From positions 62,001 through 126,000 of the forward strand of contig NZ_LS422991.1 in the NCBI RefSeq assembly GCF_900411375.1: DNA of 64,000 bases, read 5' to 3'. The DNA comes from Lentilactobacillus raoultii (GTDB lineage Bacteria > Bacillota > Bacilli > Lactobacillales > Lactobacillaceae). The notes beneath the pieces were generated by a model. It saw only the letters and a list, made by a program, of their open reading frames with translations. It ran no database searches and was not told the DNA's origin. Below, piece by piece: positions 44,492 to 61,836 of the stretch; within the stretch, counting starts at the first letter, position 1, and the number at the start of each line of letters is the position of its first letter. Position numbers and translations under genes: made by a program.

Positions 44492-44995
44492 ATGGCAAAA
44501 TTGAACATTATCAAAGGTGATATTACAAAGATGCCCGTTGACGCCATTGTCAACGCAGCTAATACCGCACTCTCCGGTGGCGGCGGTGTCGACGGCGCCA
44601 TCCATCGAGCAGCCGGACCGCAGTTGGATGAAGCCTGTCGAAAGCTTAATGGTTGTCCAACGGGCGAGGCTAAGACAACACCAGGGTTTAATCTGCCTGC
44701 CAAATATGTCATTCATACTCCCGGTCCGGTTTGGCATGGAGGTTCCCAAAACGAGAGTCAACTTTTAAGGAATTCTTATGTTAATAGTCTAAAACAAGCT
44801 GTTCTTAATCATTGCACCACCGTCGCCTTTCCGTCCATCAGTACCGGCATTTACAGCTTTCCGCTTGAAAAAGCAGCTAAAATTGCCATTACTGCCATTC
44901 AAGAATTTGATGCACCACTTGATGTGACGATGGTTTGCTTTGATTCGGTAACCTATGATGCATTCCTTAACGTGAGCCAAAATCATTCGTTCTAA
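44492..44995 (+). CDS. Macrodomain protein (ADP-ribose hydrolase, MacroD/YmdB type)
   Basis: 167 aa from ATG at 44492 (AAGGAGG nine nt upstream). Macrodomain motifs: IIKGDITKMPVDAIVNAAN, LSGGGGVDGAIHRAAG, and SISTGIYSFPLEKAA. These bind ADP-ribose; the class removes ADP-ribose from proteins or acts on O-acetyl-ADP-ribose. It is convergent with a GcvH-like/lyase/lipoate-ligase operon. In SirTM-type operons a macrodomain protein is found with GcvH-L and LplA2, but those are longer zinc-containing macrodomains (about 260 aa); this one is the ordinary short form. Confidence 0.93.
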   Translation: MAKLNIIKGDITKMPVDAIVNAANTALSGGGGVDGAIHRAAGPQLDEACRKLNGCPTGEAKTTPGFNLPAKYVIHTPGPVWHGGSQNESQLLRNSYVNSLKQAVLNHCTTVAFPSISTGIYSFPLEKAAKIAITAIQEFDAPLDVTMVCFDSVTYDAFLNVSQNHSF

Positions 44996-45011
44996 ATTTA
45001 AGCCCTTAAAT

Positions 45012-45060
45012 GTTACAAAAAAGGTTAGAATATATGCCAGCTGGCAAGCCTTTTTGTAAC
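45012..45060. other. Inverted repeat after the macrodomain gene
   Basis: GTTACAAAAAAGG / CCTTTTTGTAAC with an inner CCAGCTGG palindrome; it directly precedes a classic terminator. Confidence 0.6.
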
Positions 45061-45063
45061 AAA

Positions 45064-45097
45064 AGACCGGAAGAACCATTTTCTCCGGTCTTTTTTG
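45064..45097. terminator. Terminator between convergent macrodomain and gcvH-like genes
   Basis: AAGACCGGA / TCCGGTCTTTTTT; A-run on the other side allows function in both directions. Confidence 0.88.
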
Positions 45098-45149
45098 ATT
45101 CAAATAGACTTATCCTCGTCTCTATAGGACAAGTCCATCTGAATATCCT

Positions 45150-45458
45150 TTAGAATAACTCGATTACCCAATTTTTGTCTTCATCCGAACTTTCCAAATA
45201 CTCCGGATGGTCTTTTAAGGCAACGTTCACTTTTGCAACCTTTCCGGCAACCGGTGTGTGAACTTCGGAAACCGCTTTGGCGCCTTCAATTGAAAGAATC
45301 ACATCTCCAAGCTTGACTTCAGCCAAATTATCCGGAAAACTGGCAAAGGAAATCTCGCCAATCTCCTGACGAGCAATATCGTTAAAGCCAATCCGAACGT
45401 GACCGTTGTCCAATCGTCTTTGCCATAAATATTTTGCATCATCAGCTGCTTGTGCCAT
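45150..45458 (-). CDS. Short GcvH-like lipoyl carrier protein (GcvH-L type)
   Basis: 102 aa, shorter than glycine-cleavage H proteins (about 125-130). The lipoyl hairpin is clear: LSIEGAKAVSEVHTPVAGKV, with Lys61 as lipoylation site, followed by LKDHPEYLESSDEDKNWVIEL. No P, T or L proteins of glycine cleavage are in the window. It is translationally coupled to the lyase gene (17-nt overlap) and a lipoate ligase-like gene lies upstream, as in GcvH-L/LplA2 units. Thus probably a dedicated carrier of lipoyl groups or of something attached to them, not a glycine cleavage part; this is inference. Confidence 0.88.
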   Translation of the reverse strand: MAQAADDAKYLWQRRLDNGHVRIGFNDIARQEIGEISFASFPDNLAEVKLGDVILSIEGAKAVSEVHTPVAGKVAKVNVALKDHPEYLESSDEDKNWVIELF

Positions 45459-46842
45459 GATTCATTACTCCTTCTTTCATTAGTGGATGTCTTTGCCGAT
45501 ACAATTTTAAGATCTTCTGGGTCTTTTCAACCGCATGGGGGACCCCGGCTTCAGGTGACATGATTTGATCAAGTTCTTGGCGGTTTAAGTATTTAGCGAT
45601 CGTCTTATCCGAATAAAACAAGTCTTTTAATAATTGATTTTCCGAATCCGCTTTTACTCTCAACCGCACTAGAAGTTCATGAGCATCTTGACGGCCTAAT
45701 CCTTTCTTGGCCAAGGCCATCATCAATGCACCGGAATACATTGTCCCGTCTCCAAGAATAAAGTTTTCAGCCATCCGCTTGGTATTAAACTTTCCAGTTT
45801 TCAAGATGGTTGTCGCGTAATTGAGCTGGCCGGACAAATACATTGTCATTTCTGGTAACGCCACATAGATGTCCCGCCAAACCGCCGTATCTTTTTCGCC
45901 ACTAACCTGCATCGTATCATATAACAGTGGCATCTCATTTCGAATGATAGTTGACAGATTCACGATTGCTTCACACATGTAAGGTTCGCGAACCGTTGGA
46001 ATAACGGTTGATCCTTGGCGGCCCGGTGCATAGTTTTCCTGAAACTCTCCAACCTGCGTTTGGCTCATCGTCAATAAATTTTTCCCTAGTTTACCAATCA
46101 TCTGGGCAATCATTGTTAAAACATGGCAATATTCGGTAAATCGCTCACGCTGCGTGTGCCAATACATTTCCGGCACTTGCAGATCCAGCTCATCACAAAA
46201 ATCGGTTTCAACTTGGTCATAGCCATCACCAATCATGGTTGAAAGCCCATCAACTCCGGTTAAAGAACCGGCAAACGTGAAGTCTGAAAGGCTATCCAGT
46301 CGGCGCATTAAGTAATCCAGCTCATTTAAAATAATGCCCAGTTTGAATCCTAACGTTGATGGCGAACTATAAGTCCGATGCGCAATTGCCACGCTAATGG
46401 TTTTTTGATAGTTGTCTGTCAGTTCATAAAGAACGGACCCAAATTTTACCAGTTGATCCATGATAATTTTATCAGCCTGTTTTAGCTGTAACACATAGCA
46501 GGTGTCTTCCACATCTTCACTGGCAGCTCCATAATGTAAATACTGACCGCTCCCATCATGAAACAATTGTTGGGAATAGCTGACGAAACCAGCCAGAAAG
46601 TGTCCCGCCCGAGCAGCGGCCAACCTCAGCTTAGTCATGTCGTAGTTCTGAGGAATGACCCTTTCTTTAATTTCTTCATAAGCCGATAATGGGATCTTTT
46701 TATTTTTAGCCATAGCATATGCCACCGCTGTTTCAACCTGGCAAACCGTTTTTAACCGATTCTCATCCGACCAAACAGCCCGCATTCGAGCTGTCGAATA
46801 ACCGTTTTGATTAAAAATTGATCCAAGGACTTCACCACTCAT
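45442..46842 (-). CDS. Fumarase/aspartase-superfamily lyase with altered active-site motifs
   Basis: 466 aa, the normal size for adenylosuccinate lyase or carboxymuconate cycloisomerase relatives. Region 1 is intact (LHYGAASEDVEDT, residues 102-114). In region 2 the usual RTHxQ is RTYSS (Tyr158 for His). In the signature loop GSSxMPxKxNP the sequence is GSTVIPTVREP (277-287), so the Lys and Asn are lost while Ser278 stays. A canonical reaction is therefore doubtful and a different substrate likely. It overlaps gcvH-L by 17 nt. AAGGGG precedes the ATG. Substrate unknown. Confidence 0.85.
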   Translation of the reverse strand: MSGEVLGSIFNQNGYSTARMRAVWSDENRLKTVCQVETAVAYAMAKNKKIPLSAYEEIKERVIPQNYDMTKLRLAAARAGHFLAGFVSYSQQLFHDGSGQYLHYGAASEDVEDTCYVLQLKQADKIIMDQLVKFGSVLYELTDNYQKTISVAIAHRTYSSPSTLGFKLGIILNELDYLMRRLDSLSDFTFAGSLTGVDGLSTMIGDGYDQVETDFCDELDLQVPEMYWHTQRERFTEYCHVLTMIAQMIGKLGKNLLTMSQTQVGEFQENYAPGRQGSTVIPTVREPYMCEAIVNLSTIIRNEMPLLYDTMQVSGEKDTAVWRDIYVALPEMTMYLSGQLNYATTILKTGKFNTKRMAENFILGDGTMYSGALMMALAKKGLGRQDAHELLVRLRVKADSENQLLKDLFYSDKTIAKYLNRQELDQIMSPEAGVPHAVEKTQKILKLYRQRHPLMKEGVMNHGTSS

Positions 46843-47047
46843 TTAAACATTTCCCCTTCACTATTTAGAGTAATTCCAGCAAGCTGTTCATTTAGCCTAA
46901 GCGACTGACTAGTGAAAGCTCAACCATTCTACTAAATCATCCTCTGAGTCTACCCATTTGTAATCACTACTTAGCACATGATCCAGTTATCTTTATGTTA
47001 ACTCTTAGACGAAGAGTTGTCAGAAATCAGCACTAAACACGATAAAT

Positions 47048-48109
47048 TCAATTAATTGTCGACTTGTCTGCAAAGCGTTTATCAACCATCATTTTAGCCA
47101 AGGCTTCAGGTGAAATGGGCCCGATGTTACGTTCAGGGTTCCCTTGCTTAAATGCCTCCGTTAGATTGGCTAAATGATAAGGCGCGCCAACTAGTTGACG
47201 CTCAATTTCACCCAAATCGCCATTCATTTTGTTAAAATCACCAAATATTTTGGCGTGTGTAATCACCCCATCAGTTACCGAAAAACTAATTTCAACGGTA
47301 CCAACTCCGGCAAAATGTTCAGAGTGATAGTTTTGATCCGTCACTGGCGTCCCCATTACCCAACTGGGATTACCAAATTTCTTTTGGGCAGCCTTTTCAA
47401 CGGTTTGCCAATCCGTCTGATCCATTCGATAAGTTGGCACCTGATCGAGATTAGCCACTTGAAATAGATTTAGCAGGAACTGAGTTTGTAACTCCATCAG
47501 CGTGATCTGCCGATATTTTGGGCTAAAGTATGGTCTTAGGTTTGTTATCTGACTATGAACCGACTTAACACCTTTGGAAGACATTTTAGATTTCGGTGGC
47601 CGTAAAGCTTTAGCAGCTCTCTGCAAATCAACGTCCACCATTAGTGTGCCCCCAGTTGAAAACCGATGGCCAATTTTCAAAGCCGACATCCCGGAAAATT
47701 TTTTGTTAGCTACGGTGAGATCATTTCTGCCAGTCATTGCGGCTTCAACTCCCAACTTCGCTAAGGTTTGAATCGCATTTTTGGCATAATACTTAAAATC
47801 CAAATAATGATGGTGCCGATCATCATCGACAAAACAATAGGTTAAGTTACCGGGGTCAACATAGACGGCACCGCCACCGGCGCCACGTCTGGCAATCTTA
47901 ATCCCCTGCTTCTTGCAATAAGCCAGGTCGACTTCCGAGTAGATATTCTGATTAACCCCACAAATAATGATTGGGGTTTTAGGACGATAAAAGAAAATAA
48001 CCTCTTCATTTGCAAATTTTGGATTAGTTATGAAATATGTTGACAGATACTGACCAACAGCCGGTTGCTTTAAATATTGATCACCACTGGATGTATCAAC
48101 ATACAACAT
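47048..48109 (-). CDS. Lipoate-protein ligase A-like protein (LplA2 type)
   Basis: 353 aa from ATG at 48109 (AAGGGA about 10 nt upstream; ATG at 48118 is too close to it). LplA catalytic domain plus C-terminal accessory domain. The lipoate loop is unusual: RRGAGGGAVYVDPGN instead of RRxSGGGAVYHDxGN found in the other copy at 60796. GRNDLTVANKKFSGMSA and KGVKSVHSQITNL are family hallmarks. It lies 205 bp upstream of the lyase-gcvH-L pair on the same strand, suggesting it charges that carrier. A cre-like sequence lies before it. Confidence 0.88.
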   Translation of the reverse strand: MLYVDTSSGDQYLKQPAVGQYLSTYFITNPKFANEEVIFFYRPKTPIIICGVNQNIYSEVDLAYCKKQGIKIARRGAGGGAVYVDPGNLTYCFVDDDRHHHYLDFKYYAKNAIQTLAKLGVEAAMTGRNDLTVANKKFSGMSALKIGHRFSTGGTLMVDVDLQRAAKALRPPKSKMSSKGVKSVHSQITNLRPYFSPKYRQITLMELQTQFLLNLFQVANLDQVPTYRMDQTDWQTVEKAAQKKFGNPSWVMGTPVTDQNYHSEHFAGVGTVEISFSVTDGVITHAKIFGDFNKMNGDLGEIERQLVGAPYHLANLTEAFKQGNPERNIGPISPEALAKMMVDKRFADKSTIN

Positions 48110-48136
48110 GCTTACCATTTCCCTTCAATTGTCGCT

Positions 48137-60795: not shown

Positions 60796-61836
60796 TTAAT
60801 CCGTCGGCGTTTTTTCCAGCAGTAAATCCGCTAAGGCTGCCGGATCAACTTTTCCTAAATTATCAGCCAAATTAACCGACTGCAATGCATTAACCAGTGC
60901 TGGTTTAGTGAGTTCAGTTCCTTGAAGCGCTTTTTCAATCACCCCAATATCGCCACCCGTGATAAAATCACCATAAATTTTAATATCTGAAATTCGATTT
61001 TGATCGGTTAGTGAGTAATTAAAACTGACAGTGCCAATATCGTAATGCTTGGAAACATAGTAATCGAACCCTGGGTTTTGGCCATAATTCCATTCATCGG
61101 TATCATACTTTCCCTGCAGTCGTTGATCAATAATCGCCCAGTCGTGATCGTTCAAATGATAGGTTTTAATATCGTCAAGTGAATTGACTTTAAACAGTTT
61201 CAGTAACAATTCTTTTTTAAAGCCCTCGATGTCCATCGCTTGATATTGCGAATCTAAATAGGGTTTGATGTTGGTGACACGACTATGAACGGATTTGACC
61301 CCTTTTGATGCCAACTTATCTTTTTCCGGGGTTAAAACTTTCGTTGCCACATCCATGTTTAAATCAAACATTAATGTCCCACCGGCAGCGTACGATTGCC
61401 CAACTTTGAACATGGTCATGCCGGAAAACTTACTGTTACCAATGACCATATCGTTACGGCCGCGCATCTGGGCATCCTTAGCACCCATTTCGTGCAAAAC
61501 ATCAATGATCGGCTGTGCAAAATAACGAAAATCACCAAAATGCCGGTCATCGTTAATCACGATGTTTTCAAAAATAATGTTACCAAAATCATGATAAACG
61601 GCCCCACCACCGGAAGTGCGTCGGACCAGTTTAATCTTATTTTTTCGCAAATAGGGCATGTTAACCTCTGCATAGGCATTTTGATTAACCCCGATAATCA
61701 CTGCCGGTTGATTCACATACATTATGAGACCATGACCAGGTAACTTTAAGTCATTTACCAGGTAATTGTCCAGCGATTGATTAACGATTGGATCATAAAC
61801 CGGTTGGCCATTTCGCGATGTATCAATGAAAAACAT
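60796..61836 (-). CDS. lplA: Lipoate-protein ligase A
   Basis: 346 aa, standard LplA length with C-terminal accessory domain. It activates free lipoate with ATP and attaches it to E2 or H proteins. The canonical loop RRTSGGGAVYHDFGN, GRNDMVIGNSKFSGMTMF with the AMP-binding Lys, and KGVKSVHSRVTNI are all intact, unlike the paralogue at 47048. So this copy is probably the housekeeping scavenging enzyme. ATG at 61836 follows GGGGATGGG. Confidence 0.93.
   Translation of the reverse strand: MFFIDTSRNGQPVYDPIVNQSLDNYLVNDLKLPGHGLIMYVNQPAVIIGVNQNAYAEVNMPYLRKNKIKLVRRTSGGGAVYHDFGNIIFENIVINDDRHFGDFRYFAQPIIDVLHEMGAKDAQMRGRNDMVIGNSKFSGMTMFKVGQSYAAGGTLMFDLNMDVATKVLTPEKDKLASKGVKSVHSRVTNIKPYLDSQYQAMDIEGFKKELLLKLFKVNSLDDIKTYHLNDHDWAIIDQRLQGKYDTDEWNYGQNPGFDYYVSKHYDIGTVSFNYSLTDQNRISDIKIYGDFITGGDIGVIEKALQGTELTKPALVNALQSVNLADNLGKVDPAALADLLLEKTPTD

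Follow-up and report, generated by a model that had tools for sequence, protein, structure and literature searches.

We analysed a 64,000-nt stretch of the Lentilactobacillus raoultii genome (RefSeq assembly GCF_900411375.1, contig NZ_LS422991.1, positions 62,001 to 126,000), which is referred to as the window. It contains three genes on the reverse strand, coding for an LplA-like lipoate-protein ligase, a lyase of the fumarase/aspartase superfamily, and a short GcvH-like lipoyl carrier, and a macrodomain gene convergent to them (Table 1). A sequence-only reading of this stretch had placed the four genes here, likened them to SirTM operons, and raised the possibility that the lyase works on a lipoyl-bound group or next to one. 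The positions hold, and Pfam and NCBIfam concur with the families. Specifically, the ligase scores 288 bits with the NCBIfam model lipoyltrans (cut-off 280), and the macrodomain scores 209 bits with NF001664, O-acetyl-ADP-ribose deacetylase (cut-off 200). The lyase and carrier genes overlap by exactly the 17 nt claimed, with the ribosome-binding site of the carrier located within the lyase gene, and the carrier Lys61 sits in the motif EGAKAV. The macrodomain start, read directly, is the ATG at 44492 with AAGGAGG upstream. An inverted repeat and a T run at about 45063–45097 were seen by eye, and are unlisted in a repeat scan limited to loops of at most 8.

The window lyase is 90% identical to that of L. 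hilgardii DSM 20176 from the same genus. Between the window and the L. hilgardii locus (L006), synonymous sites are near or beyond saturation (proportion of synonymous differences, pS, 0.70–0.82), while non-synonymous differences amount to 6% in the lyase, 5% in the carrier, 14% in the macrodomain, and 17% in LplA. All four genes are real and under purifying selection, the lyase and carrier genes most.

Table 1. Positions of the genes and loci described in the text
Feature	Record	Coordinates	Strand	Family evidence
LplA-like lipoate-protein ligase, dedicated subfamily	window	47048-48118	-	Pfam LplA-B_cat 7e-48 + Lip_prot_lig_C
Fumarase/aspartase-superfamily lyase, 466 aa	window	45442-46842	-	Pfam Lyase_1 + ADSL_C
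GcvH-like lipoyl carrier, 102 aa, predicted lipoyl site Lys61	window	45150-45458	-	Pfam GCV_H 1e-17
Macrodomain, MacroD/YmdB type	window	44492-44995	+	Pfam Macro 1e-45
Xi/YqjG-like GST in lactobacillar yxe-type locus	L059	6274-7194		
Xi/YqjG-like GST in lactobacillar yxe-type locus	L060	7676-8641		
Xi/YqjG-like GST in lactobacillar yxe-type locus	L061	1685-2782		
Xi/YqjG-like GST in lactobacillar yxe-type locus	L063	7145-8236		
Second LplA of the window	window	60796-61836		
Lyase remnant beside carrier (G047)	L137	7448-7870		
LplA and MR/MLE enzyme, contig C5	L025	7611-9763		
LplA and MR/MLE enzyme, Pediococcus plasmid	L098	7845-10237		
Tandem Xi-like GSTs by importer, contig C5	L091	6726-11202		
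Carrier of contig C23	L021	7769-8086		
rodA-adjacent GcvH-like gene, L. raoultii	L022	9265-9558		
rodA-adjacent GcvH-like gene, Limosilactobacillus plasmid	L103	4989-5282		
rodA-adjacent GcvH-like gene, Limosilactobacillus plasmid	L104	4983-5282		
SIR2-family protein, contig C7	L066	1354-2133		
Macrodomain gene and DarT-family gene, contig C5	L027	8698-10725		Pfam DarT 8e-29 (DarT-family gene)

Conservation of the ligase, lyase, and carrier genes

The survey covered 397 Lactobacillaceae genomes, 395 genomes drawn from the order, and 398 drawn from the class. At E 1e-60, the lyase has matches in 18 of the Lactobacillaceae genomes, ten of them at 53% identity or more (eight from the same genus and two from another) and eight at only 28–32%. 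Five genomes of the order sample match at E 1e-90; three further relatives with 39–44% identity occur in two other families. With the lyase of locus L071 as query and E 1e-85, the only match in the class sample is the L. raoultii genome itself. Among plasmids, the window lyase matches 465 records, none of which reaches 60% identity; the best has 31%.

We examined 14 intact lyase loci from 12 genomes and, in addition, L008, which is cut by a contig end and is the same stretch as L058. Five of the eight Lactobacillaceae genomes with a distant lyase were also opened; the other three and a second copy in G282 were left out. The LplA gene adjoins the lyase gene in 13 of the 14 intact loci and shares a same-strand run with it in all of them, and the carrier gene adjoins it in 11 and shares the run in 12. 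The gap between LplA and lyase is 205 nt in the window and 132 nt in L006, whereas in the 11 other adjacent loci it is at most 20 nt or the genes overlap. The flanks divide the loci into eight groups: the hilgardii block, a block with aldo/keto reductase (AKR) and bPH2 genes (L051, L053, and L054), L050 with L052, L055, L056, L057, L070 with L071, and L072. The carrier is present in seven of these eight distinct gene contexts. LplA, lyase, and carrier are a real conserved unit, and the sequence-only reading, which would have fallen had lyase and carrier not been neighbours in other genomes, is borne out on this point. Locus L051 has a second carrier in one open reading frame with LplA; this fusion could be genuine or an artefact of assembly.

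A carrier at least 48% identical to that of the window occurs in all ten lyase-positive Lactobacillaceae genomes and in four of the 387 others (Fisher p 4e-17, for related and hence non-independent genomes and an identity cut chosen after seeing the list). In G047, one of the four carrier-only genomes, a remnant of the lyase adjoins the carrier; the other three (G082, G109, and G133) have an AKR-LplA-carrier set. The carriers of two genomes from genus g9 (G105 with locus L142, and G155 with L143) stand without recognised LplA or lyase neighbours. The loci of G047, G105, and G155 look like decaying versions of the unit.

The lyase and its S-(2-succino) lyase relatives

By sequence alone, CMLE, adenylosuccinate lyase, XcbD, and trans-aconitate decarboxylase are at similar distance from the window lyase, and its best NCBIfam match, XcbD (NF052536), scores 246 bits, far below the cut-off of 600. 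A tree of 27 lyases places it better. The 14 lyases of the conserved unit, hereafter cassette lyases, form one clade (100/100) with seven lyases of yxe-type loci outside it, and cassette and yxe lyases together split from the six others at 89/92. The tree has several long branches, PurB above all, and the assayed S-(2-succino) lyases (2SLs) of E. italicus and D. dadantii were left out. The nearest characterised relative of the cassette lyases is 2SL, which splits S-succinyl thiols to give fumarate and a thiol: Hillmann et al. (2022, PMC9706529) describe 2SL loci built on the yxe-type plan. They report that 2SL converts N-acetyl-S-(2-succino)cysteine (N-acetyl-2SC) to fumarate and N-acetylcysteine and also catalyses the reverse reaction; that it succinates the dithiol dithiothreitol (DTT), 2-mercaptoethanol, and coenzyme M but not coenzyme A or glutathione; and that the Kc of breakdown is 0.0046–0.0067, an equilibrium favouring the adduct.

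The L071 lyase is 40% identical to the lyase of a yxe-type locus on a Niallia taxi plasmid, whose record is unannotated at this place; acetyltransferase, importer, and M20-type genes were recognised there by eye and an LLM gene by Pfam. The same plan recurs on two Pantoea plasmids, where no LLM is annotated. Four of the five distant Lactobacillaceae lyases opened also lie in yxe-type loci: L059, L061, and L063 have matches to YxeL, YxeM, YxeN, YxeO, and YxeP, and L060 to YxeL and YxeM only near the lyase. All four loci contain a glutathione S-transferase (GST) related to that of L071. The term S-transferase and words beginning with lipo are absent from the two 2SC papers, including PMC9706529. 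On contig C5 of L. raoultii, two tandem Xi-like GST genes stand by a YxeMNO-like importer; a comparison with the yxe proteins gave no match to the lyase, YxeL, or YxeP there.

Three cassettes from outside the Lactobacillaceae resemble the yxe plan most. In L070, L071, and L072, the unit shares its same-strand run with YxeM- and YxeN-like genes, and in L070 and L071 also with a YxeO-like gene. Each of these runs codes for a solute-binding protein, which Pfam assigns to family 3 in L071, and for a permease and a Xi-class protein carrying GST C-terminal domains; L070 and L071 add an ATPase. Relatives of the L071 GST include E. coli YqjG and further GSTs of the Xi-class/glutathionyl-hydroquinone reductase type. 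No YxeL or YxeP match was found in the stretches compared, of which the short L070 and L071 contigs cut the flanks; LplA and the carrier stand where yxe loci have YxeL and YxeP. Importer and GST genes would also suit a lyase that uses a free imported thioether or succinyl-type compound, with the carrier separately reducing the Xi-class GST or an AKR. The finding that OYE binds GcvH-L only when the latter is lipoylated (PMC4518038) is in line with such a redox helper. In the Lactobacillaceae, however, the coupling is between lyase and carrier, whose reading frames adjoin or overlap, and the cassette has neither importer nor GST; we regard this explanation as unlikely.

We then inspected the lyase residues. 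H81, H103, H155, and S278 are invariant in 18 lyases (12 cassette, four yxe, L062, and PurB), and all four are kept in every cassette and yxe lyase of the 27-lyase alignment. The six other lyases have Tyr for H81 in three cases and Asn or Leu for H155 in two. We take S278 and the histidines to perform the elimination chemistry of the superfamily, and TTQD and KxN to hold the two carboxylates of fumarate. A literature search on the loop motif gave nothing useful. The yxe lyases keep TTQD, RTHGxQ, and GS[ST]TMPxKRNP. The L070 and L071 lyases keep the loop Lys and Asn but have ASQD and GHGGH, and the L072 lyase has TTQD, AHGNH, and MRN, in which Met replaces the loop Lys and Asn is kept. A change of the second Ser of the loop to Thr was considered as a cassette hallmark and dropped, as the Niallia and Pantoea yxe-locus lyases have the same change.

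Ligase subfamily, carrier kinship, and macrodomain

The window LplA has the motif RRGAGGGAVYVD, with Val where most other LplAs compared have His. It belongs to a dedicated subfamily that forms a clade (100/99) of 18 among 25 rows and has RRxxGG[GS]AVxVD in all 18 members; in the other seven, the residue preceding the Asp is His, Gln, or Thr. The L070, L071, and L072 LplAs keep the HD motif. In the Lactobacillaceae, LplAs of this one subfamily are paired with the lyase, with AKR, and with MR/MLE. The AKR-LplA-carrier sets without lyase (L134, L135, and L136 in G082, G109, and G133, all from the same genus) are a separate module that sometimes adjoins the lyase module, and AKR was rejected as a general lyase partner because they stand without it. 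In these sets, the G082 AKR is split in two reading frames, the G133 LplA frame is short, and the G109 carrier was placed from the carrier survey. The MR/MLE pairing is found on contig C5, where the gene for an LplA of the subfamily and that for an enolase-superfamily enzyme overlap by 4 nt, and on a Pediococcus plasmid. LplA-MR/MLE is a predicted second lipoylation-linked enzyme pair. The window itself holds a second LplA, which has the HD motif and is sister to the LplA beside the carrier of contig C3.

A motif shared by 18 of 18 clade members and three types of partner enzyme could also mean that the subfamily attaches a carboxylic acid other than lipoate to Lys61, and that lyase, AKR, or MR/MLE acts on the tethered acyl group. 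The L070–L072 LplAs, which are linked to the same lyase clade, nevertheless keep the HD motif, and releasing a group tethered by an amide would take a further enzyme, of which none common to the loci was recognised. We consider a tethered substrate improbable.

The lipoyl Lys is kept in 14 of 15 aligned carriers. The exception is the carrier of contig C23, which has ESPNTV for EGAKAV and has gained three residues, with LplA and AKR genes nearby. The matching loci of two relatives (L138 and L139) have a carrier of the C23 type plus a second carrier adjoining LplA. The L. raoultii genome (3.07 Mb, 99.97% complete) encodes eight LplA-like ligases, three GcvH-like proteins besides the window carrier plus one weak match, an apparent lipoyl synthase with its own LplA-like gene, and one 2-oxoacid dehydrogenase E2 with apparent E1-beta and lipoamide dehydrogenase alongside. 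The glycine decarboxylase P-protein model PF02347 has no match in this genome, with a positive control in ten of 14 genomes. A carrier serving only glycine cleavage, which would speak against the sequence-only reading, is therefore unlikely, and this role was rejected.

GcvH relays lipoate to E2 in Bacillus subtilis. By analogy, the window carrier might store lipoate or relay it to the E2 of pyruvate dehydrogenase, the lyase being an unrelated passenger of the operon; an E2 in a genome with no detected glycine decarboxylase agrees with this. Yet the lyase stays with LplA and carrier in seven contexts, including two other families, and another gene of the genome, a GcvH-like gene directly after rodA, fits a relay better. 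The rodA arrangement also occurs on two Limosilactobacillus plasmids. A relay by the window carrier hence seems to us a poor explanation, with little chance of being right.

The SirTM resemblance claimed by the sequence-only reading holds in part. An Aerococcus tenax plasmid has an extended SirTM operon with flavin oxidoreductase, LLM, carrier, protein-ADP-ribose hydrolase, SIR2, and LplA genes. The L071 carrier is 40% identical to the GcvH-L of this operon over 107 aa. The L070 and L071 carriers group with it (96/91), within a group that includes the rodA-linked L. raoultii carrier (97/97). The window carrier takes another place in the tree and shares 31% identity with the Aerococcus GcvH-L over 72 aa; much of the carrier tree is weakly supported and has long branches. 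By sequence kinship, the lyase operons with importer and GST genes share a carrier type with SirTM operons. The macrodomain part of the resemblance is not supported. The role of the SirTM-linked oxidoreductases LLM and OYE is called elusive in PMC11490716, and the word lyase is absent from PMC4518038 and PMC11490716. The SirTM-operon LLM was considered as a counterpart of YxeK and rejected, because the Niallia YxeK-like protein and the Aerococcus LLM align over 30 residues at E 0.024, which indicates a broad family only.

No sirtuin was recognised beside the set, in agreement with what had been claimed, and no SirTM was recognised in the L. raoultii genome. Two SIR2 genes are present on contigs C26 and C7, neither of which has a carrier, and the better match is 26% identical to the Aerococcus SirTM over 197 aa (E 2e-4). 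The SIR2-family protein of contig C7 has WG at the position of the catalytic HG of ordinary sirtuins, where SirTMs carry QG (PMC4518038).

The macrodomain has the glycine-rich loop SGGGGVDG and is of the ordinary MacroD/YmdB type, facing the operon, as described by the sequence-only reading. With PRK04143, the model for protein-ADP-ribose hydrolase (the product name annotated for the macrodomain of the Aerococcus SirTM operon), its score is 136, the cut-off being 272. A macrodomain stands beside the set only in the hilgardii syntenic block (window, L006, L007, and L008); none was found in the other 11 of the 15 lyase loci. We judged the gene to be an incidental neighbour and rejected it as a functional part, on synteny (a single block), on its convergent orientation, and on its type. 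A SirTM-like switch without sirtuin, in which the macrodomain strips ADP-ribose from the lipoylated carrier, would draw on this adjacency and on the GcvH-L kinship of the L070 and L071 carriers. It is largely refuted by the synteny and deserves almost no credence, as the macrodomain was not found in most loci and is convergent and of a type whose members MacroD1 and YmdB did not reverse GcvH-L ADP-ribosylation (PMC4518038). Elsewhere in the genome, on contig C5, a macrodomain gene is followed by a DarT-family gene, an arrangement resembling a DarTG-type toxin-antitoxin pair.

A candidate lipoyl thiol handle and known systems

A lyase acting on or beside a lipoyl-bound group is the best hypothesis for the unit, and it is sharper than first proposed because the nearest characterised lyase cleaves S-succinyl thiols. 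We suggest that a lipoylation module of LplA and carrier is coupled to a lyase from the 2SL side of the superfamily, and that the lipoyl dithiol of the carrier is the thiol partner of the lyase. We hold this reading tentatively, as having slightly less than an even chance. Judged by family and residues, LplA would attach lipoate to the carrier Lys61. The reduced dithiol arm would serve the lyase as DTT can serve 2SL, and the lyase would reversibly form or break a bond between a lipoyl sulphur and a compound with an activated double bond. This acceptor may be fumarate-like in L070–L072 and is probably something else in the Lactobacillaceae. In L070–L072, import of the adducted compound would be followed by its exchange onto the lipoyl arm or its cleavage with that arm, which the GST and/or lipoamide dehydrogenase would reset. 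The direction could be detoxifying addition or salvage by elimination; addition would be chemically easier because the published 2SL equilibrium favours the adduct. Overall, the unit would be a lipoyl-protein version of 2SC-type thiol-adduct breakdown, with LplA and carrier replacing N-acetylation by YxeL and deacetylation by YxeP.

Several observations weigh against this reading. L050 and L052 have LplA and lyase without a carrier in the stretch examined, although their genomes hold a second lyase copy with carrier. None of the eight Lactobacillaceae loci inspected shows an importer or GST gene within the unit; of these, L055, L056, and L057 were also compared with the yxe proteins by BLAST. 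Xi-class GSTs do not clearly track the lyase (nine of 13 lyase-positive and three of nine lyase-negative genomes), which leaves an obligate GST partner unsupported genome-wide. Long branches weaken parts of the lyase, LplA, and carrier trees. The LplA subfamily pairs with AKR and MR/MLE enzymes too, and since it serves these other partners, the carrier may act more generally in thiol or redox reactions. Lastly, the 11 Lactobacillaceae cassette lyases have [AT]SED, [AT]H[RK]xx, and PT[VS]xx in place of TTQD, RTHGxQ, and PxKRNP, with V or S replacing the loop K and E, N, or C at the N position; the window lyase has neither the K nor the N. Fumarate may thus not be the product of the window enzyme, nor of that of L072, given the altered residues. 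Because the histidines and Ser are kept while the presumed carboxylate-binding residues are replaced, the elimination chemistry should probably persist with a shifted substrate, most of all in the Lactobacillaceae.

The three-gene set conserved in some lactic acid bacteria points to an undescribed pathway in which a lipoyl arm borne by a protein would act as thiol handle. In a general form of this idea, which is possible but rather unlikely, a lipoylated protein is a covalent thiol handle: the lyase adds the dihydrolipoyl arm at, or eliminates it from, an activated C=C bond, and resolution of the adduct falls to the second lipoyl thiol together with a Xi-class GST or lipoamide dehydrogenase. 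The role of lipoylated GcvH-like proteins outside glycine cleavage is a standing question in the field, and the question here reduces to one enzyme assay, as the nearest characterised relative of the partner enzyme has defined C–S chemistry. If the reading is right, lipoate would gain another job, that of a protein-bound thiol for handling adducts, in bacteria that often have no glutathione. The handle would parallel glutathione conjugation and the 2SC pathway, with a lipoyl protein as the thiol, and would suggest a purpose for GcvH-L carriers outside glycine cleavage, including those of SirTM operons.

Full-text literature searches, with most subscription journals and all bioRxiv preprints outside their scope, gave no description of an LplA-carrier-lyase unit. 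We compared the unit with four known systems. XcbD, the 3-sulfopropionylcysteine synthase of NF052536, is by its name a C–S bond-forming member of the superfamily, but no coenzyme M pathway genes were recognised among the open reading frames near the cassette. LbpA of Hdr-like sulfur oxidation, according to Cao et al. (2018, PMC6067878), is likewise a GcvH-like, sulphur-binding lipoate carrier with a dedicated LplA-like ligase; around the cassette no Hdr-like genes were recognised when the reading frames were read without a hidden Markov model search, and the partner is a fumarase-superfamily lyase. The extended SirTM operon (Rack et al. 2015, PMC4518038; also PMC11490716) is alike in its operon-specific LplA and short GcvH-like carrier outside glycine cleavage, whereas no SirTM, Zn-macrodomain, OYE, or LLM was recognised in the unit, which has the lyase instead.

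The 2SL loci are the closest counterpart. Their lyases belong to the same superfamily and are the nearest characterised tree relatives, and L070–L072 have the amino-acid-type importer as well. The expected shared chemistry is beta-elimination of a thiol from a succinyl-type adduct, and PMC9706529 documents a dithiol, DTT, as accepted by 2SL. The cassette lyases differ in forming a separate clade (100/100), whose Lactobacillaceae members have lost residues that yxe-locus lyases keep, and the cassettes differ in having LplA and a GcvH-like carrier in place of the YxeL acetyltransferase and the YxeP deacetylase.

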